A DNA stretch of 64,000 nt from Algoriphagus sp. (lineage in GTDB: Bacteria; Bacteroidota; Bacteroidia; Cytophagales; Cyclobacteriaceae). The translations under genes were made by a program, and so were the position numbers. The stretch is taken from the NCBI RefSeq assembly GCF_030694375.1, contig NZ_JAUXYL010000023.1:1-64000 (forward strand), in the 5' to 3' direction. Shown here piece after piece: positions 3,300 through 18,419 of this stretch (the first letter of the stretch is position 1; each line of letters opens with the position of its first letter). The notes beneath the pieces were generated by a model. That model ran no database searches and had not been told where the DNA came from. It saw only the letters and a program-made list of their open reading frames with translations.

Positions 3300-4319
3300 A
3301 TGGACCATAAGAAACGAATAAATGATTTTTTTGAGGGTAAACTAAGTCAGGAACAGGCTCAGGAACTCCTCGATTGGCTTGATTCTTCCGAAGCCGAAGA
3401 ATTTTTGTCCGCAGAGATTCTGCAGATTTGGTCCGAAAAAATCCGGGCCCACCAAGCCGAGACTTGGGACTCGCAGCCGCTTTGGGAAAAAATCAACCAG
3501 GCAAAAGACGGATATTCCCGACCTCATCTCCTCGTGGATTTAAAGCCTTCCAAAAAACTGTTCCCCCTTTGGCTCAAGGCAGCAGTGGTCTTCTTGGTCC
3601 TTGGCTTTTCGGCCCTATTTTTCTTTGAAGTCAACAAGTCAGTCGAAATTCCTTCGGGAATTTCAAGCAGCGAACCAAAAATGATCGTTCGTGAAAACCC
3701 CTCAGGGCAAAAAACTAAAATCAATCTTCCTGACGGTTCTACGGTGTTTCTCAACTCTGAAAGTAAAATCACCTACCCGGAAGACTTTTTGACAAGCCGA
3801 CACATTGAACTTGAAGGCGAAGGCTTTTTCCAGGTTGCCAAGGATGAGGAAAACCCGTTCTCAGTCGAGGCTGAGGGAATCATCACCACAGCAATCGGTA
3901 CTTCCTTTAATATTTCAACTTTTAATTCACAGGAAAAGGTGGCTGTCACTTTGGTGACTGGAAAAGTACGCCTCAATCAAAAAGGCAACAAAAACTCCCT
4001 CGACCTCAACCCGGGTGAAGAATCTCTGCTCTCACTGAAAGATGAAAGCTTTGGAAAATATCCGATAGAAGTTTCAAATAGAATCAGCTGGATAGATGGA
4101 GTTTTGCGGTTTTCCGAAACTCCTTTCAACGAAATGATCCAAATCCTTCAACGCTGGTATGGAGTGAAAATCCAGGTGATCGGCAATCCAAAAGTGATGA
4201 AGGGAACCGGAACATTTGATACCAATGAAAGCCTGCAAAATGTGCTCCATGTGCTCAGTGGCTCCATGGAATTTGAGTATCAGTTAAAAAACAAAGAAGT
4301 AGTCATCAATTTCAACTAA
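3300..4319 (+). CDS. FecR family anti-sigma regulator
   Basis: TM segment, FecR motif (TKINLPDGSTVFLNSESKITYPEDF...FFQVAKDEENPFSVEA), C-terminal secretin/STN-like domain. Confidence 0.9.
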   Translation: MDHKKRINDFFEGKLSQEQAQELLDWLDSSEAEEFLSAEILQIWSEKIRAHQAETWDSQPLWEKINQAKDGYSRPHLLVDLKPSKKLFPLWLKAAVVFLVLGFSALFFFEVNKSVEIPSGISSSEPKMIVRENPSGQKTKINLPDGSTVFLNSESKITYPEDFLTSRHIELEGEGFFQVAKDEENPFSVEAEGIITTAIGTSFNISTFNSQEKVAVTLVTGKVRLNQKGNKNSLDLNPGEESLLSLKDESFGKYPIEVSNRISWIDGVLRFSETPFNEMIQILQRWYGVKIQVIGNPKVMKGTGTFDTNESLQNVLHVLSGSMEFEYQLKNKEVVINFN

Positions 4320-4471: not shown

Positions 4472-7400
4472 ATGAAAAAAATAATACCATTAATAGTTAT
4501 GTCTATTAAGTTAGTAGTCAGAGGTGTGTTGCTGCTTTGCCTGACATTGAGTCCCTTGTTGGCCAGCACCACTTCTGCACAGGTAAAAAGCATCGATCAG
4601 GTTCACCTCAAACTGGAAAAGAGCAACTACTCGCTCCTTCAGCTTTTTCGTGAAATTGAAGACAAAACCGACTTTAGGTTTTTTTACTCCGAAGCTGCTG
4701 TCAAAGGCCAATCGGGTCTGAGTATTGAAAAAACCTCCGGATCAGTGGAGCAGCATCTCTATCAGATTGCAACCCAGACCAACCTCCGGTTTAAGCAGGT
4801 AAACAACACCATCAGTGTCATCGTCAACGGTACAGGCACCAAGCTGGTAGAAACAGCCTCCAATAGAGCTATGATCTCCGGCGTAGTCAAAGACATGACA
4901 GGAGCAGCCCTGCCGGGAGTCACCATTCTTGTCGAAGGGACTACCACCGGCACGGTCACCGATATTGATGGCAACTTTTCCATTGAAGCATCGGAAGGAC
5001 AAGTCCTTATTTTTTCATTCATAGGCTTAAAGCGCCAAAAAATCACAGTTGGGAATGCGACCACCTTGCAGGTAGTGATGGTGTCTGAGGACAATAACCT
5101 GGAAGAATTTGTAGTGGTAGGCTATGGTACACTGCAGAAAAAAGACATCACAGGCTCAGTGAGTGCCATATCAAGTGAGGAAATCAAAGACCAGCCGGTA
5201 GTAAGCATCGATCAGGCCATGGCAGGTCGAATGGCCGGCGTGGTGGTGACCCAAGCTACAGGCGCACCGGGTGGAGGAGCTTCGGTGAGAATCCGTGGCG
5301 CAGGCTCCCTCAGCGCGGGCAATGAGCCACTTTATGTCGTGGATGGATTCCCAGTCACCAATGATTTTGACCAAAGAAATAATCCATTAAATACGATCAA
5401 CCCAAATGACATTGACAATATCCAGGTCTTGAAAGATGCCTCTGCTACCGCAATCTACGGTTCAAGAGGCTCTAACGGCGTCATTTTGATCACTACCAAA
5501 TCAGGAAAATCCGGAATGTCCAAGATCGATTTCAGCATCAACACCGGAATTCAGCAGGTCGAGAAAACCTTGGATGTACTCAATGCAACGGAATTTGCGA
5601 GGTATATCAACGAATCCAGAAATAACGCTTGGGTAAACTCAGGCCCCGGTCGTGCCGCCACTGATCCTAATTCTGTTCGCCTTAACAATGTCATGTACCT
5701 ATTGCCGGAAGTTTTCAGCAATCCTGAGTCCCTTGGCGAAGGAACCGATTGGCAGGACGAAATCTTCCGAACCGCTCAAATGAGCAACTACCAGTTGAAT
5801 TTCTCCGGAGGAAATGATAAAACCAAGTACTTCGTATCCGGTGGCTACCTGAGTCAGGATGGAGTAATTATCAATTCTGATTTGAAGCGCTACTCCTTCA
5901 GAGTAAATGTGGAGTCCCAAATGAACAAGCGGGTGAAAATAGGAGCCAACTTTACACCTTCCTACACCTTCTCCAACCAATCACTTGCCGAAGGAAACTG
6001 GCAGGGGGGAGGAATCATCCAATCCGCAATTACTGCTGCCCCACACCTGAAACCTTACGATGAATTTGGAAATTACACCAAAATTACCGGACAGGGTATC
6101 GGACTTTCTGAAGTGGATAATCCGGTGAAAATCGCCAGGGAATATTTCCACCAACAGCAAAATCTCAGATTGCTCGGGACTTCATTCGCAGAGTTTTTAT
6201 TGGTGGACAACCTGAAGTTCAAAGCCCTCGTGGGTGCGGATATCAGAAACTTCCGGGAAGACATTTTCAGTTCTTCCATCATCAACCCCAATAGTGTCAA
6301 TCCAACCAAGCCGGCAATAGGAACCAATGGGACTTCCCAAATCAGAAACTGGCTTTCAGAATTTACCCTCGGCTACAACAAAAGAATCGGTAAACATAAT
6401 TTTGATGCCGTTTTGGGTTACACCGTTCAGCAGGAATCATTGGATGTCAACCGGATGACGGGAACCAACTTTGCCAATGATAATATCAAAACCATCAATG
6501 CGGCAGGATTGATCTCCAACGCATTCTCCTCCAAAGAAGAATGGTCTTTGATCTCTTACCTAGCCCGTGTGAATTACAATTTCGATGACAGGTATTTGCT
6601 CACTGCAACATTCCGACGTGATGGTTCCTCCAGATTTGGACGGGACAACCGTTGGGGTTCTTTCCCTTCGGTTTCTTTGGGCTGGAGATTGTCTGAAGAA
6701 GCATTCCTGAGTGATGTCAATTGGTTGTCTGAGTTGAGAATCCGAACCAGCTACGGCTTGACAGGTAACAACTTCATCACGAATTATGGCTCAATCGGTC
6801 TGACCGGTATCGAAAATTATCCCTTCGGAATGAATGGAGGTACTGTTAACAACGGTATCCGCCTGACCAATATCCCAAACAGTAGATTGGGTTGGGAAAG
6901 AAACAGCCAAACGGATTTGGGTATCGAAATCGGCATTTTGCAAAACAGAATCTATGCTTCTGCAGATTACTACGTCAAACGCACCTCTGACCTTTTGCTC
7001 AATGTGCCGGTTCCTACCTTGACGGGCTACACCACTGCCCTGCAGAATATCGGTGAAATCGAAAATAAAGGCTTTGAATTCACAGTCACCAGCCGTAACA
7101 CGGTAGGTCAATTCAAGTGGACTACGGATCTCAACTACTCCACCAATGCGATTCAGGTATTGGCTTTGGGGCCAGACGGATCTCCCATCATCTCCAGACA
7201 GGCAACTTCTGCCAGTGCACCCACACACATCACCAAAATCGGTTCCGCACCAGGAAGCTTCTTTGGCTACAATGTGATCGGAGTTTACCAAAATCAACAA
7301 GAAATCGACAACAGCCCGGTCATTCGGAATGGCAACGGAACAGTTCAGTCCAAACCAGGTCAGTTGAAATTTGAAGATGTCAACGGCGATGGCAAAATCG

Positions 7401-7957
7401 ACGCCGATGACAGAACGGTTTTGGGAAGCCCTTTTCCTGATTTTACATGGGGTATGACCAATTCCTTTAGCTACAAAAACCTGGATTTCGCATTCACACT
7501 TCAGGGTGTTCATGGATTTGAAGTCCTCAATGCAGCCAGAAGGTACTACGCCAATTATGCCGGCTCCTACAATGTTTTGTCAAGCGCATCAAATGGATGG
7601 AAGTCTGAATCCGATAGAGGGGATGGCGTTTCACCGATGATTGACAGAAATTTCAACGGGTACGCAGGAAGTAATGTGGTCAATAATATGACCTCCCTGT
7701 TTGTTGAAGATGGATCATTCCTGAGAATCCGAAACATTACTTTGGGATACAATTTACCTCCATCTGTCTTGGAAAAAGTGAAACTGGCTAATGCCCGATT
7801 GAGCTTCACAGTCCAAAATGCTTACACCTTCACAAATTATGAAGGGTACAATCCTGAAGTAAGTGCCCAAGGTGGAAGTCCTTTGGTACCGGGCGTGGAT
7901 GCCGGTGGCTATCCCTTGGCCCGCACGTTCATGTTGGGTTTAAATGTTGGCTTCTAA
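4472..7957 (+). CDS. SusC/RagA family TonB-linked outer membrane protein with N-terminal STN domain
   Basis: STN domain, carboxypeptidase-D regulatory-like domain, plug (YGTLQKKDITGSVSAI), long beta-barrel. Confidence 0.95.
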   Translation: MKKIIPLIVMSIKLVVRGVLLLCLTLSPLLASTTSAQVKSIDQVHLKLEKSNYSLLQLFREIEDKTDFRFFYSEAAVKGQSGLSIEKTSGSVEQHLYQIATQTNLRFKQVNNTISVIVNGTGTKLVETASNRAMISGVVKDMTGAALPGVTILVEGTTTGTVTDIDGNFSIEASEGQVLIFSFIGLKRQKITVGNATTLQVVMVSEDNNLEEFVVVGYGTLQKKDITGSVSAISSEEIKDQPVVSIDQAMAGRMAGVVVTQATGAPGGGASVRIRGAGSLSAGNEPLYVVDGFPVTNDFDQRNNPLNTINPNDIDNIQVLKDASATAIYGSRGSNGVILITTKSGKSGMSKIDFSINTGIQQVEKTLDVLNATEFARYINESRNNAWVNSGPGRAATDPNSVRLNNVMYLLPEVFSNPESLGEGTDWQDEIFRTAQMSNYQLNFSGGNDKTKYFVSGGYLSQDGVIINSDLKRYSFRVNVESQMNKRVKIGANFTPSYTFSNQSLAEGNWQGGGIIQSAITAAPHLKPYDEFGNYTKITGQGIGLSEVDNPVKIAREYFHQQQNLRLLGTSFAEFLLVDNLKFKALVGADIRNFREDIFSSSIINPNSVNPTKPAIGTNGTSQIRNWLSEFTLGYNKRIGKHNFDAVLGYTVQQESLDVNRMTGTNFANDNIKTINAAGLISNAFSSKEEWSLISYLARVNYNFDDRYLLTATFRRDGSSRFGRDNRWGSFPSVSLGWRLSEEAFLSDVNWLSELRIRTSYGLTGNNFITNYGSIGLTGIENYPFGMNGGTVNNGIRLTNIPNSRLGWERNSQTDLGIEIGILQNRIYASADYYVKRTSDLLLNVPVPTLTGYTTALQNIGEIENKGFEFTVTSRNTVGQFKWTTDLNYSTNAIQVLALGPDGSPIISRQATSASAPTHITKIGSAPGSFFGYNVIGVYQNQQEIDNSPVIRNGNGTVQSKPGQLKFEDVNGDGKIDADDRTVLGSPFPDFTWGMTNSFSYKNLDFAFTLQGVHGFEVLNAARRYYANYAGSYNVLSSASNGWKSESDRGDGVSPMIDRNFNGYAGSNVVNNMTSLFVEDGSFLRIRNITLGYNLPPSVLEKVKLANARLSFTVQNAYTFTNYEGYNPEVSAQGGSPLVPGVDAGGYPLARTFMLGLNVGF

Positions 7958-8057: not shown

Positions 8058-8144
8058 TGAAATGCCCATGAGAATAGTTTCTCACACAGAGGGATGATTA
8101 TTAGGGGCATTCCATCTGACCACTGAAAAAAAAATATAAACAGA
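8058..8144 (+). repeat. TGAAA-bounded structured element, copy B (87 bp); its right end supplies the susD start codon
   Basis: TGAAATGCCC-GAGAA/TTCTC hairpin-CACACAGAGGGATGATTAT-GGGGCATTCCATCTG...AAACAGA(TGAAA). Confidence 0.85.
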
Positions 8145-9607
8145 TGAAATCGATAAAAATATTAATCGCTGCGGGATCTATTCTCTTGCTTTCCGCAGGC
8201 GCTTGCAGTGATGATTTTCTGGACTTGGCTCCCATCTCTCAGCAAAACAGTTCTAATTTCTACAAAACTGCCGAGGACATGAAAAATGCCCTCACGGCAG
8301 TATATGGCTCCTTGCAGTACGGAGGTCAATACTATTCCTCTATCCATGTGATGGGTGACCTGCGCTCTGACAATACAGAAATCACCAATCCCAATGCAGG
8401 TGCAGACCTTCAGGCTATAGATAATTTCACCAACACACCGGTGACCTCGACCAGCAGCATTACCTGGAATGCGCATTATCAGGGAATTCAGGCAGCCAAT
8501 ATCCTCATCGAAAAGATCGAACCAGTGAACATGGAACCCGCTCTCAAGGCTCGTTACCTGGGAGAGGCAAAATTCCTCAGAGCATTGATGTACTTCAACC
8601 TGGTAAGAATCTATGGGGACGTTCCCTTGGTGACCAAAGTCATCAACAACCCTCAGGAAGGCTATGACTACGGTAGAGAGACCACAGCGAAGGTGTACGA
8701 ACAAATCATCGCAGACTTGATGGCAGCGGAAGGCTCCCTTCCTTATGCCTATCCCGCGGCTGAGGCGGGTCGTGCCACCAAGGGCGCTGCAATGTCCCTC
8801 TTGGGTAAGGTCTACCTCACCAGAAAAGAATGGTCTTTGGCTGCTCAAAAATTGAAGCAGGTGATAGATGATTCCGCGCAGACCAGGTACAGACTGATGC
8901 CTACGTATGCGGGGATTTTCGGAGCCTCTGCCGAAAATAACCTGGAATCCATTTTCGAAGTGCAGTTCAAAAGCGGTTCAAACGGGGAGGGTAGCCCTTT
9001 TACCAACCAATTTGCTCCGATTGGATCGGGTACCGCTGTAGTCGCTGTCGGTAATCCATTGGGACAAAATATCCCGACTGCAACGATGAATTCTGCCTAC
9101 GAAGCGAATGATTTGCGAAAAGATGTCTCAATGAAAACAAGCTATGTGCTCGCGGGAAAAACTGTCCTTCACAACTATGTGGTGAAATACAGCGGAACTC
9201 CGGCTGCCAACCTTGACAGTGACAACAATTGGATCGTCCTGAGATATGCTGATGTGCTCCTGATGTATGCCGAAGCACTCAACGAACTTGGATTTGTAGC
9301 CAACGGACCTGCCTTTGATTTACTCAATCAAATCAGAACCCGGGCAGGTCTTCCGATCAAAACCTTTGCGAATGCAAACCCCGCACTCCAAATTACTTCC
9401 CAAGCCCAATTCCGTTTGGCCTTGGAGCAGGAGCGAAGAGTCGAACTGGCCTTCGAAGGGCATCGTTGGTTTGATCTGGTCAGAACGGATCGCGCCTTGG
9501 CGGTATTGGCCGATAAGGGTATGCAACCGCACCATGTGTTGTTGGCGATTCCTCAAAGTCAAGTGGACATCAATCCTTCCATGATTGTCCAAAATCCGGG
9601 ATATTAA
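8144..9607 (+). CDS. RagB/SusD family nutrient uptake outer membrane lipoprotein
   Basis: Lipobox LLLSAGAC, SusD-like repeats, C-terminal RRVELAFEGHRWFDLVRTDRA motif. Confidence 0.95.
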   Translation: MKSIKILIAAGSILLLSAGACSDDFLDLAPISQQNSSNFYKTAEDMKNALTAVYGSLQYGGQYYSSIHVMGDLRSDNTEITNPNAGADLQAIDNFTNTPVTSTSSITWNAHYQGIQAANILIEKIEPVNMEPALKARYLGEAKFLRALMYFNLVRIYGDVPLVTKVINNPQEGYDYGRETTAKVYEQIIADLMAAEGSLPYAYPAAEAGRATKGAAMSLLGKVYLTRKEWSLAAQKLKQVIDDSAQTRYRLMPTYAGIFGASAENNLESIFEVQFKSGSNGEGSPFTNQFAPIGSGTAVVAVGNPLGQNIPTATMNSAYEANDLRKDVSMKTSYVLAGKTVLHNYVVKYSGTPAANLDSDNNWIVLRYADVLLMYAEALNELGFVANGPAFDLLNQIRTRAGLPIKTFANANPALQITSQAQFRLALEQERRVELAFEGHRWFDLVRTDRALAVLADKGMQPHHVLLAIPQSQVDINPSMIVQNPGY

Positions 9608-9783: not shown

Positions 9784-11247
9784 GTGAAACAAACTCTGAT
9801 CACGCTTTTTCTGGGGTGTACCTTACCGCTTTGCCTATTCGCACAGCAGCCCTTAACTCTTAATCAAAAGGATTCGGGCTACCGGGGAATCTGGTACAGC
9901 AACCAGCCTTCCAACGATAAGTATGTCTACAAGTACAGCGGTGGGCTGGCTACCTATCCTGCCAATCACTATCCCTTTTCTATCTATGTAGGCGAAGTTG
10001 ATAAGACATTTTTTTGCTATGGGGGAACAGACCCTTCGGGAAATACCCTGCTCCATATGATCTCTTATTTTGATCATAAAACGAAAACTTTGCCCAAACC
10101 CACCATCGTACTGGACAAACAAACTGACAACGCCCATGACAATCCGGTCATGAATATCGACGCTGAGGGCTACATCTGGATTTTTTCTACTGCTCATGGG
10201 ACTGACAGTCCATCCTACATCCACAGAAGCAAAAAGCCCTACGACATTGCTGAATTCGAGCAAATCTTTGCTTCTAAAATAGTGGATGATGCCACCGTCC
10301 AAATGGATAATTTCTCTTACCTCCAAACCTGGTATCAGCCTGAAAATGGGTTTATCAACCTCTTCACTCATTATGAACGAAATGTAATTCCACACCAGCC
10401 CTCCAAGCCAAGAAGGACGATAGGATTCATGACAAGCCCTGATGGAATCAGGTACTCCGAATGGAAAGACCTCGCTAAAATAGCCGAAGGTCACTACCAG
10501 ACTAGCGCTCAGCATCAAAACACCCTCGGTACCTCCTTCAACTTTCACCCTGTTAAAGAACTCGAAAACGGACTGAACTATCGTACCAATTTATATTACA
10601 TCCAAACCGACGACTTTGGAAAAAACTGGAAGTCCGCTGATGGTAAATTACTGGACATTCCACTGACGGAAATCCAAAATCCGGCGCTGGTCAAGGATTA
10701 TGCCTCGGAGGGTTTGCTGGTGTACATCAACGACCTGACATATGATGCAGATGGGAATCCCGTGATTTTATATGTCACTAGTAAAGGCTTCGAAGCCGGA
10801 CCTGAAAAAGGGCCACGAACCTGGCATACCGCAAGATTTACCGGTTCAGGCTGGGACATCCTTCCGGTCACCCAATCCGACAATAATTACGATATGGGCT
10901 CCCTCTACATTGATGAAACTGGCACATGGCGAATTGTTGGTCCCACATCTACCGGTCCCCAACCTTACAATACCGGAGGCGAAATGGTGCTTTGGGAAAG
11001 TCACAACAATGGCCAAAGTTGGGAAGCCCGGGCCATGACGGCCAATAGCAAGCGCAATCATTCCTATGCCCGAAGACCTGTCCATGTTCACGATGATTTT
11101 TATGCCTTTTGGGCAGATGGGCACGGACGGAAAAAATCAAAATCCAGACTCTATTTCTCTGATAAAAATGGAAATGTCTACCAACTCCCCACCAAGATGT
11201 CAGCTGATTTTGCAAAGCCAAAGCAAATAGAACTCAGAAAGAAATAG
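9784..11247 (+). CDS. Secreted BNR-repeat (BNR_4-like) protein, putative polysaccharide-active enzyme
   Basis: Signal peptide; DSGYRGIWYSNQPSNDKYVYKYSGGLATYPANHYPF typical of BNR_4 family proteins. Confidence 0.7.
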   Translation: MKQTLITLFLGCTLPLCLFAQQPLTLNQKDSGYRGIWYSNQPSNDKYVYKYSGGLATYPANHYPFSIYVGEVDKTFFCYGGTDPSGNTLLHMISYFDHKTKTLPKPTIVLDKQTDNAHDNPVMNIDAEGYIWIFSTAHGTDSPSYIHRSKKPYDIAEFEQIFASKIVDDATVQMDNFSYLQTWYQPENGFINLFTHYERNVIPHQPSKPRRTIGFMTSPDGIRYSEWKDLAKIAEGHYQTSAQHQNTLGTSFNFHPVKELENGLNYRTNLYYIQTDDFGKNWKSADGKLLDIPLTEIQNPALVKDYASEGLLVYINDLTYDADGNPVILYVTSKGFEAGPEKGPRTWHTARFTGSGWDILPVTQSDNNYDMGSLYIDETGTWRIVGPTSTGPQPYNTGGEMVLWESHNNGQSWEARAMTANSKRNHSYARRPVHVHDDFYAFWADGHGRKKSKSRLYFSDKNGNVYQLPTKMSADFAKPKQIELRKK

Positions 11248-11248
11248 C

Positions 11249-12724
11249 ATGACTAGAACTTTGCTTGCCCTTCTTTTTTGCCTTGCTTTTCTTTCGTCCT
11301 GCACCAAAGAACAGCCGAAGCTTTCCCTGCAACAACTGGACATCGTCCGTCTGCAGCAGTCTTGGTTGAAAGTGGAGGTGCTGTCCGATTCCATGATCGT
11401 CCCATGGGATTTGGAGACAGACTCCCAAGGCTTCCTTTGGGTGGCCGAACAGGAAGGAAAAGTATCCAGGATTAACCTGTCAACTGCCGAGAAGAAAGTA
11501 ATGCTGGTCATCTCAGATGTTTGGCAACAGCGGACCTCCGGTCTGTTGGGCATGGCTGTTCATCCGGATTTTGCCAATAATCCTTTCGTCTACCTGAATT
11601 ATACCGTAAAAAAAGACAGCCTGATCAGCAGCCGACTCTTCAGGTATAAGCTGGATAAGGACAGCCTTACGGATCCAATACTACTGTTGGAAATCGAGGG
11701 CGGAACATCCCACAATGGGTCGAGACTCGCTTTTGGACCGGATGGAAAACTCTATTGGGCCACAGGAGACACCCATGATTTCACCTATGCCCAAAACTCG
11801 GAAAAGCTAAACGGTAAAATATTGAGGATGAACCCGGATGGAAGTATCCCTTCAGACAATCCCGACCCAGGAAGCCTGGTTTGGGCCAAGGGTTTTCGCA
11901 ATATGCAGGGACTTACCTTTTCGGACAGCGGACTGCTGTACACCTCCGAACATGGAGATGCGATAGAAGATGAGGTAAACCTGATCATTGCCGGCGGGAA
12001 TTATGGATGGCCTATCATCGAGGGAATGCATGACTTGGATCCGGAGAAGGTATTTGCTGGGGAAAATCAAACCATCGAACCCATCCGCTCCTGGACGCCC
12101 GTGATCGCTCCTGCGGGGATCGCTTTTTACGGAGAAAAAACAATTCCGGAATGGACCAATACCCTCCTCCTGACAACCCTGAAAGGAAAAAGCCTAAGGA
12201 TACTTCAGCTCAGCCAAGACGGAAAAACAATCCTGGACGAAGAAATCCTCTTTGAAAATCATTATGGCCGACTTCGTGATGTGACGGTTGGCCCCAAAGG
12301 AGAAATCTACCTCAGCACCAGCAACAAGGATTGGAATCCCCAGCCTGGATTTCCACTCCCGGGAGACGATAAAATTTTGAAAATCAGTCTGACAGACCAA
12401 GTTGTTCCCAGCCCCTTGGAAGCAAGTAAACCAGCAGAACCACTTATCTTGAATGGAGAGCAATTGTATCTCAACTATTGCGCCTCCTGCCACAAGGCAA
12501 ATGGGACAGGCCTTAGCGAGGTCTTTCCGACTTTGGCAGGTTCTACTCTAGTCAAAGGGAATGTCAAACCCCTGATCCAATTGGTATTAAAAGGGAAAAA
12601 TCAAATGCCTGCATTTGGCTTTCTAAGCAATCGGGAAGCCGCGGAAATTCTAACTTATATAAGACAGAATTGGGGCAATAAAGCTTCGGAAATCACATCC
12701 CCGCAGGTAGAAGAAAACAGATGA
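11249..12724 (+). CDS. PQQ-dependent sugar dehydrogenase-like beta-propeller fused to a C-terminal cytochrome c domain, lipoprotein
   Basis: Lipobox FLSSC; PWDLETDSQGFLWVAEQEGKVSRIN, SEHGDAIEDEVNLIIAGGNYGWP; CASCHKANGTG heme c motif. Confidence 0.85.
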   Translation: MTRTLLALLFCLAFLSSCTKEQPKLSLQQLDIVRLQQSWLKVEVLSDSMIVPWDLETDSQGFLWVAEQEGKVSRINLSTAEKKVMLVISDVWQQRTSGLLGMAVHPDFANNPFVYLNYTVKKDSLISSRLFRYKLDKDSLTDPILLLEIEGGTSHNGSRLAFGPDGKLYWATGDTHDFTYAQNSEKLNGKILRMNPDGSIPSDNPDPGSLVWAKGFRNMQGLTFSDSGLLYTSEHGDAIEDEVNLIIAGGNYGWPIIEGMHDLDPEKVFAGENQTIEPIRSWTPVIAPAGIAFYGEKTIPEWTNTLLLTTLKGKSLRILQLSQDGKTILDEEILFENHYGRLRDVTVGPKGEIYLSTSNKDWNPQPGFPLPGDDKILKISLTDQVVPSPLEASKPAEPLILNGEQLYLNYCASCHKANGTGLSEVFPTLAGSTLVKGNVKPLIQLVLKGKNQMPAFGFLSNREAAEILTYIRQNWGNKASEITSPQVEENR

Positions 12725-12883: not shown

Positions 12884-14089
12884 ATGCCGGAAAACAAAAT
12901 CATCAAACTAGCAAAAGGCCTCGGTCCAGGAATCATTACCGCTGCCTTGGTTTTCGGTCCCAGCAAAATGACCATCACCTCCCGTTTGGGGGCTGAATAT
13001 GGGTATTCCACACTGTGGGTAGTCGTTGTGGCGATCTTCTTTATGCTGATTTTTACGGATATGGGAGCCAGGATCGGTCTGAGCAGTTCGGTAAGCTTGC
13101 TCACACAGATCCGAAACAAATGGGGAAAGGCAGCAGGTGTAATCATCGGATTTGGAGTGTTTTTGGTTGCTACCTCATTTCAGGCTGGAAATTCCATCGG
13201 AGTTGGGATCGCTGTAGCAGAGGCAAGCGAAACCCCAACTTGGATTTGGATTTTGGTTTTTAATCTTGCGGGTGTGAGTCTGCTCTTCTTCGGCAGTTTT
13301 TATAAAACGCTGGAAAAGTTGATGATTGCCTTGGTCGGGCTGATGCTCATATCCTTTTTAACGACCTTATTTCTCAGCAAACCCTCCCTAAGTGGGATTG
13401 CTAATGGTTTTATTCCCTCCATCCCATTGGGTTCCGCAGGTTTACTGATTGCTTTTACGGCCTCCTGCTTTTCTATTGTAGGGGCATTTTACCAATCTTA
13501 CTTGATTCAGGAAAGCAAAAAACCGGGCTTCGAAAAACAAGCAAAAAACCGGAGTGCGATTGGGATATTAATTTTGGGAATCATGAGTTTGGTTGTGATT
13601 ATTTGTGCTGCATCCATCCTTAACCCGCAGGGAATCAAGGTAAACAGCGCTTCAGAAATGTCCAAGGCACTGGAGCCGCTGTTTGGTTCCTATGCCGCTC
13701 ATTTGTTTTTGGCAGGCCTTTTTGGAGCCTCATTTTCCTCCTTGGTTGGGAATGCTACCGTTGGGGGAAGTTTGCTTGGTGATTCCCTGGGTTTCGGGAA
13801 TCGCCTGAGTTCAAAGGCCGTCCGCGGTTTTATTGCGCTGGTCATGGCCTGTGGTGCCAGCATCTCTCTCATCTTCGGAAAACTTCCACTCGAACTCATC
13901 ATTTTCGCTCAAAGCGTCACCATTTTTTTGGTGCCCTTTATCGGTTTTGCGATGTATGCCATCGCCAATGACCCCAAGATCATGGGCGAAAAAGTCAATT
14001 CTTCCTTTGCAAAAATCTCCGGAGCCATCGGTCTGATTCTACTCACCGGTTTGGCTGTCTGGAACTTCAACGAACTGTTTATCAAATAG
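12884..14089 (+). CDS. Nramp-family (SLC11-like) transporter with non-canonical TM1/TM6 motifs
   Basis: LGPGIITAALVFGPSKMTITSRLGAEYGYSTLWVVV aligns with Nramp TM1 but lacks DPGN; ~11 hydrophobic segments. Confidence 0.8.
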   Translation: MPENKIIKLAKGLGPGIITAALVFGPSKMTITSRLGAEYGYSTLWVVVVAIFFMLIFTDMGARIGLSSSVSLLTQIRNKWGKAAGVIIGFGVFLVATSFQAGNSIGVGIAVAEASETPTWIWILVFNLAGVSLLFFGSFYKTLEKLMIALVGLMLISFLTTLFLSKPSLSGIANGFIPSIPLGSAGLLIAFTASCFSIVGAFYQSYLIQESKKPGFEKQAKNRSAIGILILGIMSLVVIICAASILNPQGIKVNSASEMSKALEPLFGSYAAHLFLAGLFGASFSSLVGNATVGGSLLGDSLGFGNRLSSKAVRGFIALVMACGASISLIFGKLPLELIIFAQSVTIFLVPFIGFAMYAIANDPKIMGEKVNSSFAKISGAIGLILLTGLAVWNFNELFIK

Positions 14090-14112: not shown

Positions 14113-15129
14113 ATGAAAGACTTAATTCAATTAGAGAAAGAACTACTAGCTCCCTCCCCGGCGCTGATTGCCGACATGGCAAAGATTGAGGGGGATATGA
14201 TCCTCTTGGGTATTGGCGGCAAAATGGGCCCGAGTATGGGTAAACTCGCCGTGGCCGCAGCCAAAGCAGCCGGAGTGGAGAAGCGAATTATAGGAGTTTC
14301 CAGGTTTTCAGATCCCAAAGCAAAAGCTGAATTGGAAGCTGCTGGCATTGAAACCATTTCCTGTGACTTATTGGACGATAAGCAGTTGCAGGAATTGCCC
14401 TTGGTAAAAAACGTGATCTATCTCGCAGGCAATAAATTCGGTACCACCGGCAATGAAAGTTTCACTTGGGCGATGAATGCTTACCTGCCGGGTCGGGTGG
14501 CAGAGAAATACAGGGATTCCAGGATTGTGGCTTTCTCCTCAGGAAATGTACTTCCTTTTGTACCCGTGACATCGGGAGGGCCATCTGAAGAAACCAGTCC
14601 CGAACCCATCGGTGAATATGCCCAGTCTTGCCTTGGCAGAGAGCGCGTTTTTGAGTATTTCTCAAAAAAGAACCATACACCAACGCTTATCTACAGACTG
14701 AATTATGCAGTGGATTTCCGATATGGAGTGATGATGGAGATCGCAAAGTCTGTCCTGAACGGAAAAGAAATAGACCTCAAAACCGAAAATGTAAACGTAA
14801 TCTGGCAGGGGGATGCAAATGAAATTGCCATCCGTTCATTGCTGCATTGCGAAACTCCGGCGAAAATCCTCAATGTCACCGGTCCGGAGATCCTCTCTGT
14901 ATATTGGATCGCCAATCAGTTTGGTAGAATTTTCAATAAAGAACCAAAATTCATCAATGCATCCACAGGCACAGCACTTTTAAACAATGCCTCCGAATGC
15001 CACCGGATTTTTGGCTACCCAAGGGTGACGGTGCGGGAGATTATTGACATCACCGCAACCTGGATTTCACAGGGTGGGGAGGAGTTTGGCAAAGCCACGC
15101 ATTTTCAAGAGAGAGGAGGGAAATTCTGA
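14113..15129 (+). CDS. NAD(P)-dependent epimerase/dehydratase (extended SDR-like)
   Basis: Gly-rich GIGGKMGPSMG, Rossmann pattern, EYAQSCLGRERVFEY in the YxxxK position. Confidence 0.75.
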   Translation: MKDLIQLEKELLAPSPALIADMAKIEGDMILLGIGGKMGPSMGKLAVAAAKAAGVEKRIIGVSRFSDPKAKAELEAAGIETISCDLLDDKQLQELPLVKNVIYLAGNKFGTTGNESFTWAMNAYLPGRVAEKYRDSRIVAFSSGNVLPFVPVTSGGPSEETSPEPIGEYAQSCLGRERVFEYFSKKNHTPTLIYRLNYAVDFRYGVMMEIAKSVLNGKEIDLKTENVNVIWQGDANEIAIRSLLHCETPAKILNVTGPEILSVYWIANQFGRIFNKEPKFINASTGTALLNNASECHRIFGYPRVTVREIIDITATWISQGGEEFGKATHFQERGGKF

Positions 15130-16193
15130 TGAACAAGTTAAGCCCAGAATTAAAGCAGCATTTGCATCAGGGGACAGTGATTCCTGCCCATCCTTTGGCA
15201 CTAAAAGCCGATCGAACGATCGATGAAGCCAGACAAAGACAACTCAGCCGCTACTACATGGCTAGCGGGGCGGGCGGAATAGCCATAGGCGTTCATTCCA
15301 CTCAGTTTGAAATCAGAGATCCTCAGGTTAACCTCTTTGAAACCGTCCTGAAATGGGCAGCAGAAGAAATTAAAGCCGCAAATTTAACCCGTCCTTTTTT
15401 GAAGGTTGCCGGAATCTGCGGGCCAACCAATCAGGCGATTGCCGAGTCCGAAATAGCTGTAAAGTATGGCTATGATATGGGGCTGCTAAGCATGGGTGGC
15501 TTGCAGGCTTGGACTGAAGCCGAGATTTTGAAGCGAGTAAGAGTAGTGGCGGAGATCATTCCGGTTTTTGGATTTTACCTGCAACCCTCAGTCGGAGGAA
15601 GGATTTTCAGCTATGATTTTTGGAAGGAATTTGCAGAAATAGATAACGTGGAGGCCATCAAATGTGCATCCTTCAATCGATATCAAACACTTGATGTGAT
15701 GCGGGCGGTAAGCCTAAGCAGCCGCAGCAATGCGATTGCCATGTACACGGGTAATGATGACAATATCGTTGCGGATTTGCTTACGACCTATCGCTTTGAA
15801 GAAGAGGGTAAGACCTTCGAAAAAGAATTTGTCGGTGGATTGCTGGGACATTGGGCAGTATATACCCAAAAAGCTGTCGCGCTTTTAGAAGAGGTAAAAG
15901 CCTGTAAAAAGAATGGTTCGGCACAAGACTGGTCCAAACTTTTGGCAAAAGGAATAGCGGTGACTGATGTCAATGCGGCCATGTTTGACACGGCCCACCA
16001 TTTCCATGGATGTATCCCGGGAATGCATGAAATGCTGCGAAGACAAGGACTCCTCGAAGGAATCTGGTGCCTCAATCCCAAGGAAGTTTTGTCCGAAGGA
16101 CAGGCAGAAGAAATCAGCCGGGTGCATCATGACTACCCTCATCTGAATGACGATGAGTTTGTAAGGGAATTTTTGAAAAAGGATAATTTCTAA
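15129..16193 (+). CDS. Dihydrodipicolinate synthase/N-acetylneuraminate lyase family aldolase-like protein
   Basis: GGIAIGVHSTQFEIRD, conserved Schiff-base region VEAIKCASFN; start overlaps upstream stop (TGATG). Confidence 0.8.
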   Translation: MNKLSPELKQHLHQGTVIPAHPLALKADRTIDEARQRQLSRYYMASGAGGIAIGVHSTQFEIRDPQVNLFETVLKWAAEEIKAANLTRPFLKVAGICGPTNQAIAESEIAVKYGYDMGLLSMGGLQAWTEAEILKRVRVVAEIIPVFGFYLQPSVGGRIFSYDFWKEFAEIDNVEAIKCASFNRYQTLDVMRAVSLSSRSNAIAMYTGNDDNIVADLLTTYRFEEEGKTFEKEFVGGLLGHWAVYTQKAVALLEEVKACKKNGSAQDWSKLLAKGIAVTDVNAAMFDTAHHFHGCIPGMHEMLRRQGLLEGIWCLNPKEVLSEGQAEEISRVHHDYPHLNDDEFVREFLKKDNF

Positions 16194-16460: not shown

Positions 16461-18419
16461 ATGAACCATTTAAAACAATTAAGCTTAGCTTTTCTTTTTT
16501 TCGCCGTTTTGACGGAGTCATTTTCCCAGGTAGACACCACCCGTTTTACCAATCATGGTCCGCAGCTTTTTGCCTCCATGATTCAGGGTAGTGTATTTGC
16601 AAAAGACCAACATGGAAATGATCTGATCTATACCGTCGTCCGGGGCGAGCCGGCGCATTTGTTGGGATATGACCTCAAAACCAGGGAATTGATTTTGGAT
16701 CAGGCCCTTCCTAAAGCTGATGGAGCCTGGGATTTGGCACAGTCTTCCGATGGGACACTGTATGCTCCGGGAGCAAACGGTAGCTTGTTTGCCCATATTC
16801 CCGGAACTCAGGAAGTCAAGGATTTGGGCGTAGTCCTGGAAGGAGAGACCTACCTTTGGAATCTCAGCTCTGGAGCGGATGGTGAAGTTTTCGGTGCTAC
16901 TTATCCCGGTTGCCGGGTTTTTAGATACCATCCAAAAGAAGGTTTTTCTGATGTGGGAAAGGGGCCATTGGTGGAAAATGAAAACTATGTCCGAAGCCTG
17001 GCTTTCTATCCCAAGACAGGGATGCTTTATGCCGGTGTTGGTTCAAAAGCTCATCTGATCGAAATCAATCCGAAAACAGGAGAGAAAAAGGAATTGCTAC
17101 CCGAGAAATTCAAAGACTTCGAGTTCGTCTATGGGCTCGAAATCGTCCCCGGATTGGATGGAAACGACAGACTTTTTGCACTCATTACTAATGGGAGCAT
17201 TACCCTGGTCTATAACTTGAAGACTCGGGAATTTGAACAGGAAATACAGGGTATGGACATGCGGGCGATCGCAGGAGAAAATTCCGGAAGGGCCGTATAC
17301 TACACCTCAAAGTCTGATTTGATGAGTTTTGATCCGGCCCAATCAGTGGAAACGGCGCAAAAACTGGCAGAGGGAGTCGGTACTGCGCTCGCTTTCAATA
17401 TCGGAACGGATGGAAAGGTTTATTTCCTGACTTCAGGTGCAAATTTGATTTCATACGACCCGAAGGATAATTTACTGGAAAAAACCAAGCTTCAAATCCC
17501 CGGACAGCCCATCCCAATCCACTCCTTGCTGACCGCTCCTGACGGTAAAATCTGGTCGGGTGGCTACTTGGCCGGAGGAAATGCGACTTTCGATCCTAAG
17601 ACCGGGACGCATACCTTTCTCCCTGGTTTGGATCAGACTGAGGCAATGTCTGTGCTGGGAGATCAAATCTTTTTTGGGGTTTACCCAAAGGGGAAATTCT
17701 ATGTGTATGACAGCAAATCCAAGTGGATGCCCAAGGAAAATAACCCAAAATTTCTGGGGCAGAAAGAAGGTCAAAGCCGCTCATTTGCCCAGGTTAGCAT
17801 TCCGGAACGTCAGTTACTTGTCTTTGGGATGATTCCTGAATATGGAAAACTTGGAGGAGCGATGGTTACCTATGATTTGGCAAAAGAGGAGTTGAAATTC
17901 TTTGACAGCCCGGTTGACAAGCAGTCGATCGCTACCTTGGCTTATACCGGAACGTATGTGCTTGGAGGCACTACCATCTCCGGAGGATTAGGGAAAAACC
18001 CCGAAACCAAGGAAGCGGTGTTGTTTGCTTGGGATCCGACCACAGGTCAAACCCTGTTTGATACGGTGCCTGTTCCAGGTGCCTCTGCCTTGACCGGACT
18101 GATCAAGGGGCCAGACGGGAATTTCTGGGGAATGGGAGATGGCACTTTATTCATTTTTGATCCAGTGGAGCGAAAAGTGATTTTCACCCAAAAGCTTTAT
18201 GATTTCCCTCCATTTAAAAGTCATATCTGGAGAAGTGCCTTTCTGGTTCTTCATCCGGATGGAAATATCTATGGGACTGATTGGGAAAAACTGTTCAAAC
18301 TGGATCCGCTGACCAAGGAAGTGACACAATTGACAAAAAACGCAGCCTTATTGGTCATGGGGAATGATGGCACACTGTATTTCAAAAGAGGTACTGAGCT
18401 ATGGTCATACCGTCCCTGA
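16461..18419 (+). CDS. Secreted beta-propeller protein of unknown function
   Basis: Signal peptide, repeated propeller blades (GYDLKTRELILDQ, VYNLKTREFEQEIQG, FDPKTGTHTFLPG). Confidence 0.7.
   Translation: MNHLKQLSLAFLFFAVLTESFSQVDTTRFTNHGPQLFASMIQGSVFAKDQHGNDLIYTVVRGEPAHLLGYDLKTRELILDQALPKADGAWDLAQSSDGTLYAPGANGSLFAHIPGTQEVKDLGVVLEGETYLWNLSSGADGEVFGATYPGCRVFRYHPKEGFSDVGKGPLVENENYVRSLAFYPKTGMLYAGVGSKAHLIEINPKTGEKKELLPEKFKDFEFVYGLEIVPGLDGNDRLFALITNGSITLVYNLKTREFEQEIQGMDMRAIAGENSGRAVYYTSKSDLMSFDPAQSVETAQKLAEGVGTALAFNIGTDGKVYFLTSGANLISYDPKDNLLEKTKLQIPGQPIPIHSLLTAPDGKIWSGGYLAGGNATFDPKTGTHTFLPGLDQTEAMSVLGDQIFFGVYPKGKFYVYDSKSKWMPKENNPKFLGQKEGQSRSFAQVSIPERQLLVFGMIPEYGKLGGAMVTYDLAKEELKFFDSPVDKQSIATLAYTGTYVLGGTTISGGLGKNPETKEAVLFAWDPTTGQTLFDTVPVPGASALTGLIKGPDGNFWGMGDGTLFIFDPVERKVIFTQKLYDFPPFKSHIWRSAFLVLHPDGNIYGTDWEKLFKLDPLTKEVTQLTKNAALLVMGNDGTLYFKRGTELWSYRP

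Follow-up and report, generated by a model that had tools for sequence, protein, structure and literature searches.

An Nramp-related protein lacking metal-binding residues, encoded in a Sus-type locus of Algoriphagus, as a probable carrier of organic acids

An Nramp-related gene in a Sus-type locus

We analyzed a 64,000-nucleotide stretch of DNA from Algoriphagus sp. (contig NZ_JAUXYL010000023.1, positions 1 to 64,000), hereafter called the window, with a focus on the protein P0001. The open reading frame of this protein occupies exactly positions 12884-14089 on the + strand and has an ATG start and 401 codons; the opposite strand carries stop codons throughout. The closest homologues were found in Algoriphagus, and the window is part of contig C13 of its genome (G000). 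The gene is part of a Sus-type locus with the following features:

3300-4319, + strand: FecR-type anti-sigma factor, likely the regulator of the Sus locus (PF16344/PF04773)
4472-7957, + strand: SusC-family TonB-dependent transporter (from its open reading frame and sequence; 65-90% identity in related loci)
8144-9607, + strand: SusD-family glycan-binding lipoprotein (PF07980/PF14322)
9784-11247, + strand: BNR_4 beta-propeller, presumed secreted glycan-active enzyme (PF15892, E 1e-15)
11249-12724, + strand: GSDH-type sugar dehydrogenase with a C-terminal cytochrome c domain, 491 aa, presumed periplasmic (PF07995, E 8e-79; PF13442, E 1e-11)
12884-14089, + strand: P0001, Nramp-related carrier, GPSK variant of the G-motif group, 401 aa (PF01566)
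14113-15129, + strand: SDR / NAD-dependent epimerase-dehydratase family protein, 338 aa, the next gene after P0001 (PF01370, E 5.6e-5)
15129-16193, + strand: N-acetylneuraminate lyase / DHDPS-like class I aldolase superfamily protein, 354 aa (from its family profile and Foldseek)
16461-18419, + strand: beta-propeller of unknown function, last gene of the conserved locus (a homologue stands beside an SDR-aldolase pair in Mesobacillus)

The initial annotation had placed P0001 between a sugar dehydrogenase and an epimerase/aldolase pair, and this arrangement was confirmed, with the GSDH-cytochrome c gene upstream and the SDR and aldolase-superfamily genes downstream. The ATG of the aldolase gene overlaps the stop codon of the SDR gene (15129). 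The whole locus, from SusCD through BNR_4, GSDH, Nramp, SDR and aldolase to the propeller, is common to Algoriphagus, Pedobacter and Niastella. A search of the PDB for relatives of the BNR_4 protein, which might have named the glycan, found none. The genome of the window encodes a second Nramp, of the GPGT (PxpT) type, at G000:C8:64700-65854. Neither pxpA nor pxpC lies within 5 kb of this gene, and a DPGN Nramp was not found in the genome.

P0001 belongs to the Nramp superfamily by sequence and by fold, in agreement with its initial assignment. It matched the Pfam Nramp family (PF01566) with an E value of 3.9e-64 and 217.4 bits, against a curated cut-off of 29.8 bits, and Nramp structures were its only matches in the PDB, in a sequence search as well as in a profile search (lowest E 1.5e-36). 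An AlphaFold model calculated with 21 aligned sequences as input reached a pLDDT of 79.8 and a pTM of 0.80. When this model was compared with known structures, as the initial annotation had proposed, the best Foldseek matches were DraNramp and EleNRMT (TM 0.83-0.85); the lower ranks held other carriers of the LeuT fold, among them ApcT and BasC, which carry amino acids. The TM1 helix is broken at residues 24-25 of the model, the overall confidence of which is moderate (pLDDT ~80).

Metal-site and proton-path residues and position in the family

The P0001 site was compared with that of canonical Nramps by multiple alignment in DraNramp numbering; DraNramp was represented by chain 8e6i, which carries the M230A mutation, and M230 refers to the wild-type residue. 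Three segments were altered:

12956-12967, + strand: TM1 motif G25-P26-S27-K28 replacing D56-P57-G58-N59 (alignments; invariant in 27 proteins)
13181-13192, + strand: TM3 Q100-A-G-N103 replacing the proton-path D131...E134 (multiple alignment)
13463-13480, + strand: TM6 S194-C195-F196-S197-I198-V199 replacing A227-T-V-M230-P231-H232 (alignments)

The canonical DPGN of TM1 is absent (D56→G25, P57→P26, G58→S27, N59→K28), as is the MPH of TM6 (A227→S194, M230→S197, P231→I198, H232→V199), and the pairing of GPSK with DPGN was recovered in independent alignments to the BfraNramp, DraNramp and EleNRMT chains. What had been read from the single sequence, namely GPSK for DPGN, a TM6 without MPHN and the loss of the Asp, Asn and Met ligands, thus stands. 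Beyond the initial annotation, we found the exchange of Asn for Lys, membership in a previously noticed G-motif group and the loss of the proton-path residues (E124→F93, D131→Q100, E134→N103, R352→I317, R353→A318). Clade B BfraNramp is likewise without most TM3/TM9 proton-path residues. The Q378 of canonical Nramps is kept in P0001 as Q343.

The GPSK, S-SIV and QN signatures were present without exception in 27 distinct proteins. These cover several Bacteroidota families and come from Algoriphagus, Pedobacter, Niastella and several further genera. Acidic or thioether ligands at the site had been named at the outset as the finding that would speak against a lost metal site, yet no conserved acidic, His or thioether replacement was found in the alignments of these 27 proteins. 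M29 and C195, neighbours of the site that might have stood in as ligands, vary among homologues. K28 is the sole clade-specific, invariant charge brought into the TM1 site, where cousins of P0001 have GPGS.

In a maximum-likelihood tree of 72 Nramps, P0001 fell within a GPGS/GPSK clade (support 100/100), members of which include haloarchaeal proteins, and GPSK had a single origin inside this clade (100/100). The canonical DPGN (100/100), NRMT-type DAGG (100/97) and GPGT (100/99) proteins formed separate clades; the branching order deep between the clades was weakly supported. The comparison with NRMT and other divergent clades suggested by the initial annotation therefore sets the P0001 clade apart from that of NRMT, bootstrap support being 100% for each of the two, and P0001 has no DAGG motif. 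It also lies outside the GPGT clade of PxpT-type carriers and has no pxpABC neighbours. Its TM1 Asp is replaced by Gly and its MPH is missing, as in the G-motif groups. According to the BfraNramp preprint (PMC12873925), Nramp-related proteins are paraphyletic to canonical ones, and these paraphyletic groups, the G-motif groups among them, are uncharacterised apart from MntG and NRMT. Since these groups, which resemble P0001 in being Nramp-related without DPGN/MPH or the proton path, have already been named there, the absence of DPGN and MPH alone is not new. In the passages of the preprint consulted, we found no description of the GPSK subtype, its invariant Lys or its SDR-aldolase linkage; a literature search on Nramps and polysaccharide-utilization loci returned no earlier report of this linkage, and no assay on the clade of P0001 was found in the literature.

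Two further Nramp-related groups were seen in the course of this work. One has GVSH (in one case GASH) in TM1 and IPI, APL, API or IPL in TM6 and is conserved in Bacteroidota with no obvious operon (L126-L129, L131-L134). A second orphan group has DPSG in TM1 and SPY in TM6 (L112, L138, L139, L141-L143).

Linkage to an SDR-aldolase pair and neighbours of relatives

We surveyed 292 genomes of the order for P0001-like (E<=1e-45) and aldolase-like (E<=1e-30) genes. Each was present in 18 of the 292, and the two sets of 18 genomes, from 6 genera, were identical; the probability of such an overlap by random drawing is 5e-29, a figure that overstates the case, since the genomes are related and hence not independent draws. 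In a sample of 396 genomes of the phylum, all 5 genomes with a close Nramp (E<1e-50) also had the aldolase, and 5 of the 6 aldolase-bearing genomes had a close Nramp, the sixth having a distant aldolase only. The two genes are on different contigs in one of these five genomes (G171). The Nramp-SDR-aldolase order was constant in 14 further loci in which the surroundings were much altered, and it was the same in Algoriphagus, Pedobacter and Niastella. The P0001-type Nramp was missing in 10 of 12 sampled congeners. The locus, although shared by these three genera, is thus accessory and probably moves horizontally.

The two partner enzymes were examined by motif, profile and structure. The SDR keeps the Rossmann glycines (GxGGKMG motif). 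Where classical SDRs have YxxxK, however, almost all of 24 homologues have Y-A-Q-S-C-L-G-R-E, and since the catalytic Lys is missing the reaction may not be a standard dehydrogenation. A phmmer search with the single SDR sequence gave weak matches only, to TerB and an engineered uronate dehydrogenase (E 0.015-0.08). The single aldolase-like sequence matched nothing in Pfam at E<=1 except noise and has no Pfam model of its own. Its family profile, searched against the PDB, matched N-acetylneuraminate lyase (NAL) and DHDPS (E 2.4e-9), and its AlphaFold model (pLDDT 84.9) matched the same enzymes in Foldseek at an E of about 1e-13. K178, the candidate Schiff-base Lys, is invariant across five phyla, over which the family is about 48-66% identical. 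By its modelled TIM-barrel fold and predicted Schiff-base Lys, the protein is assigned to the sialate-lyase/DHDPS superfamily.

The SDR-aldolase pair occurs in Bacteroidota, Bacillota, Actinomycetota, Pseudomonadota and Planctomycetota, with the loci of phyla other than Bacteroidota drawn from plasmid records only. Its neighbours in Paenibacillus, Streptomyces, Nitratireductor, Tistrella, Sulfitobacter and Rhodococcus include carriers of the carbohydrate ABC, tripartite tricarboxylate (TTT), other ABC or MFS type, suggesting that the Nramp fills the slot of an organic-solute importer. A GNAT acetyltransferase gene (PF18014 in L072) recurs near the pair or the Nramp (L072, L046, L077, L080) and both L042 and L051 have an M20 deacetylase-like gene, a hint that the substrate may bear an N-acyl group.

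The gene neighbourhoods of relatives were compared with those of canonical Nramps, as the initial annotation had advised. A DtxR-type repressor was present within 5 kb of 7/18 DPGN Nramps from the same phylum but of 0/50 GPSK, GPGS or GPGT Nramps (Fisher p 3e-5); these loci are a sample and not a census, the GPSK ones are close relatives, and the motif and neighbour counts are phylogenetically non-independent given the single origin of GPSK. The relatives were located in loci for the catabolism of sugars, amino sugars, uronates or 5-oxoproline. The pxpA or pxpC genes adjoin 17 of 23 GPGT Nramps, and neither was found within 5 kb of GPSK Nramps. GPGS and GPSK Nramps have neighbours of the amino-sugar type (NagA, NagB-like, NagP-like, GH20, GH109, AgaR, AgaS-like) as well as PfkB, a GatY-type aldolase, tagaturonate reductase, altronate dehydratase and enolase-superfamily proteins. 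The haloarchaeal relatives adjoin heparinase II/III, Gfo/Idh/MocA and FAH enzymes, one of them standing beside an SDR 51% identical to that of the window. Depending on the locus, the neighbours suggest amino sugars, uronates or aldonates.

Two other arrangements were observed among these loci. In marine Bacteroidota, GTGS-type and GPGS-type Nramp-related genes are close together with a NagB-like gene (L046 4830-9206, L048 3197-5764, L049 5405-9227). A very divergent Nramp-related protein (GPGF/GGY) is encoded beside pxpABC (L125 5955-7181), so the recruitment of Nramp-like carriers to 5-oxoproline operons may have happened more than once.

Proposed function and alternatives

We propose, with a probability of about 0.7, that P0001 has abandoned metal transport and acts as a secondary carrier of the inner membrane that brings in a small organic solute. 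This solute would most likely be a sugar derivative with a carboxylate, and K28 would help to bind the carboxylate. The import of an organic nutrient appears most likely from the loss of the metal-gripping residues together with the constant company of two sugar-acid-type enzymes. The evidence supports a class of substrates rather than a single one. In the proposed scheme, SusC/D and the BNR_4 protein would free and take in a glycan fragment, and in the periplasm the GSDH-cytochrome c protein would oxidise its sugar end. The resulting acid, an aldonate or an oxidised amino-sugar acid, would enter the cytoplasm through P0001, where the SDR would modify it and the sialate-lyase/DHDPS-like enzyme would then cleave it to pyruvate and an aldehyde. 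Glycine-rich TM1 breaks hold the carboxylate in amino-acid carriers of the same fold. In P0001, the Gly-Pro-Ser-Lys break, through its backbone amides and K28, may replace the metal-binding Asp/Asn and hold the carboxylate. Whether the whole GPGS/GPSK branch of bacteria and haloarchaea consists of organic-acid carriers with the metal site turned into a carboxylate site, the derived K28 marking a sugar-acid subtype coupled to an undescribed SDR and sialate-lyase-like pathway, seems to us an even bet.

P0001 could still be a divalent-cation transporter with an altered site that supplies a metal cofactor to the enzymes of the locus. Its PF01566 membership and Nramp fold would fit such a role, as would the lack of a DPGN Nramp in the genome. 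NRMT transports Mg2+ without DPGN/MPH motifs (PMC8806188), and Mn phenotypes are documented for YcsG/MntG, overproduction of which raises cellular Mn (PMC10448178), and for MumT, an Nramp in a urea-carboxylase operon for which metal-cofactor supply to urea carboxylase was proposed (PMC5050338). Since both are encoded in catabolic operons, such a context alone is no proof against a metal substrate. EleNRMT, however, retains the TM1 Asp (DAGG), whereas P0001 has none and carries a Lys in the site instead. Among the 50 G-motif Nramps examined, none had a DtxR-type regulator within 5 kb, and the absence of the gene from 10 of 12 congeners argues against a housekeeping metal importer. Neither SDRs nor Schiff-base aldolases are known as a metalloenzyme class. 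We therefore consider a metal substrate improbable. The suggestion in the initial annotation that the substrate is not a Mn/Fe-type ion gains indirect support from the missing replacement ligand, the site Lys, the SDR-aldolase linkage and the DtxR contrast. Its conjecture that an organic compound, for example a sugar acid, might be the substrate finds support, again indirectly, in the lock to the SDR-aldolase pair and in the catabolic neighbours of relatives.

The amino-sugar neighbours of several relatives (NagA/NagB/NagP-like, GH20, GH109, AgaR and AgaS-like) would equally suit a carrier of a neutral sugar or N-acetylamino sugar, such as GalNAc or GlcNAc, in place of an acid. In L147 and L149, though, a NagP-type MFS carrier adjoins the Nramp, indicating that a sugar carrier is already present there. 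The aldolase partner acts on keto acids by superfamily, a GSDH is part of the window operon, enolase-superfamily proteins are found in L150, L152 and L156, and K28 suits an anion; a neutral substrate is thus unlikely. With all known functional residues of canonical Nramps lost, P0001 might even be a divergent pseudo-transporter or a sensor (transceptor) that transports nothing. This is very improbable, as many membrane positions are invariant across 35-90% identity, the Nramp is kept in every genome of the order sample that has the enzyme pair, and it takes the place of ABC, TTT or MFS carriers found elsewhere.

Two specific assignments were also considered and rejected. 5-Oxoproline was discarded as the substrate of P0001 for the lack of pxpABC nearby and the different clade. 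Identity with the oxidative-chitin (GlcNAc1A) ong pathway was discarded since the ong transporter is of the SSS family and OngB is a subtype V amidohydrolase, in contrast to the M20 ArgE/DapE-like hydrolases here; a substrate of the GlcNAc1A kind is possible.

An organic-acid carrier of the kind proposed can be compared with several known systems. PxpT, YcsG (MntG) and PxpG resemble P0001 in combining an Nramp fold with a gene locked to organic-acid catabolic enzymes, and the pxp-linked Nramps share the replacement of the TM1 Asp by Gly (GPG motif). They differ in forming their own GPGT clade, with VPY in TM6, E at 131 and no site Lys, and the partners of PxpT are PxpABC rather than an SDR-aldolase pair. 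PxpT is needed for growth on 5-oxoproline, although metal transport is a possibility that its authors leave open (PMC13274462), and whether YcsG/MntG carries a metal or an organic acid is openly disputed (PMC10448178 versus PMC13274462). EleNRMT (Mg2+) and SiNRAT (Al3+) also have an Nramp fold with an altered site (TM 0.81-0.85), EleNRMT being in a separate clade. Canonical MntH/DMT1 proteins (DraNramp, ScaDMT, BfraNramp) share the overall fold, the helix order and the conserved Gln with P0001, but not its operon context, and all DPGN/MPH ligands and TM3/TM9 proton residues are replaced in P0001. OngIT, an N-acetylglucosaminate importer of a marine Pseudoalteromonas (PMC9537276), is like the proposed P0001 an inner-membrane carrier of an oxidised sugar acid in a TonB-receptor locus; it belongs to the SSS family, however, and its partners OngB, OngC and KdgK differ from the enzymes seen here.

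Annotation as a Mn/Fe importer is routine for Nramp proteins, and databases so label P0001-type genes. The P0001 clade provides a clean test case, since it has no metal ligand, carries a Lys in the site and is linked almost obligately to an enzyme of the keto-acid-aldolase type. The SDR-aldolase pathway, which spans five phyla, is apparently undescribed. If our interpretation is correct, the Nramp fold carries organic acids and many database annotations would need correction. The finding would add to the few recent hints that this fold has been reused for organic molecules, and metal transport would be one specialisation within a broader family of organic-solute carriers, in line with the paraphyly described in PMC12873925.
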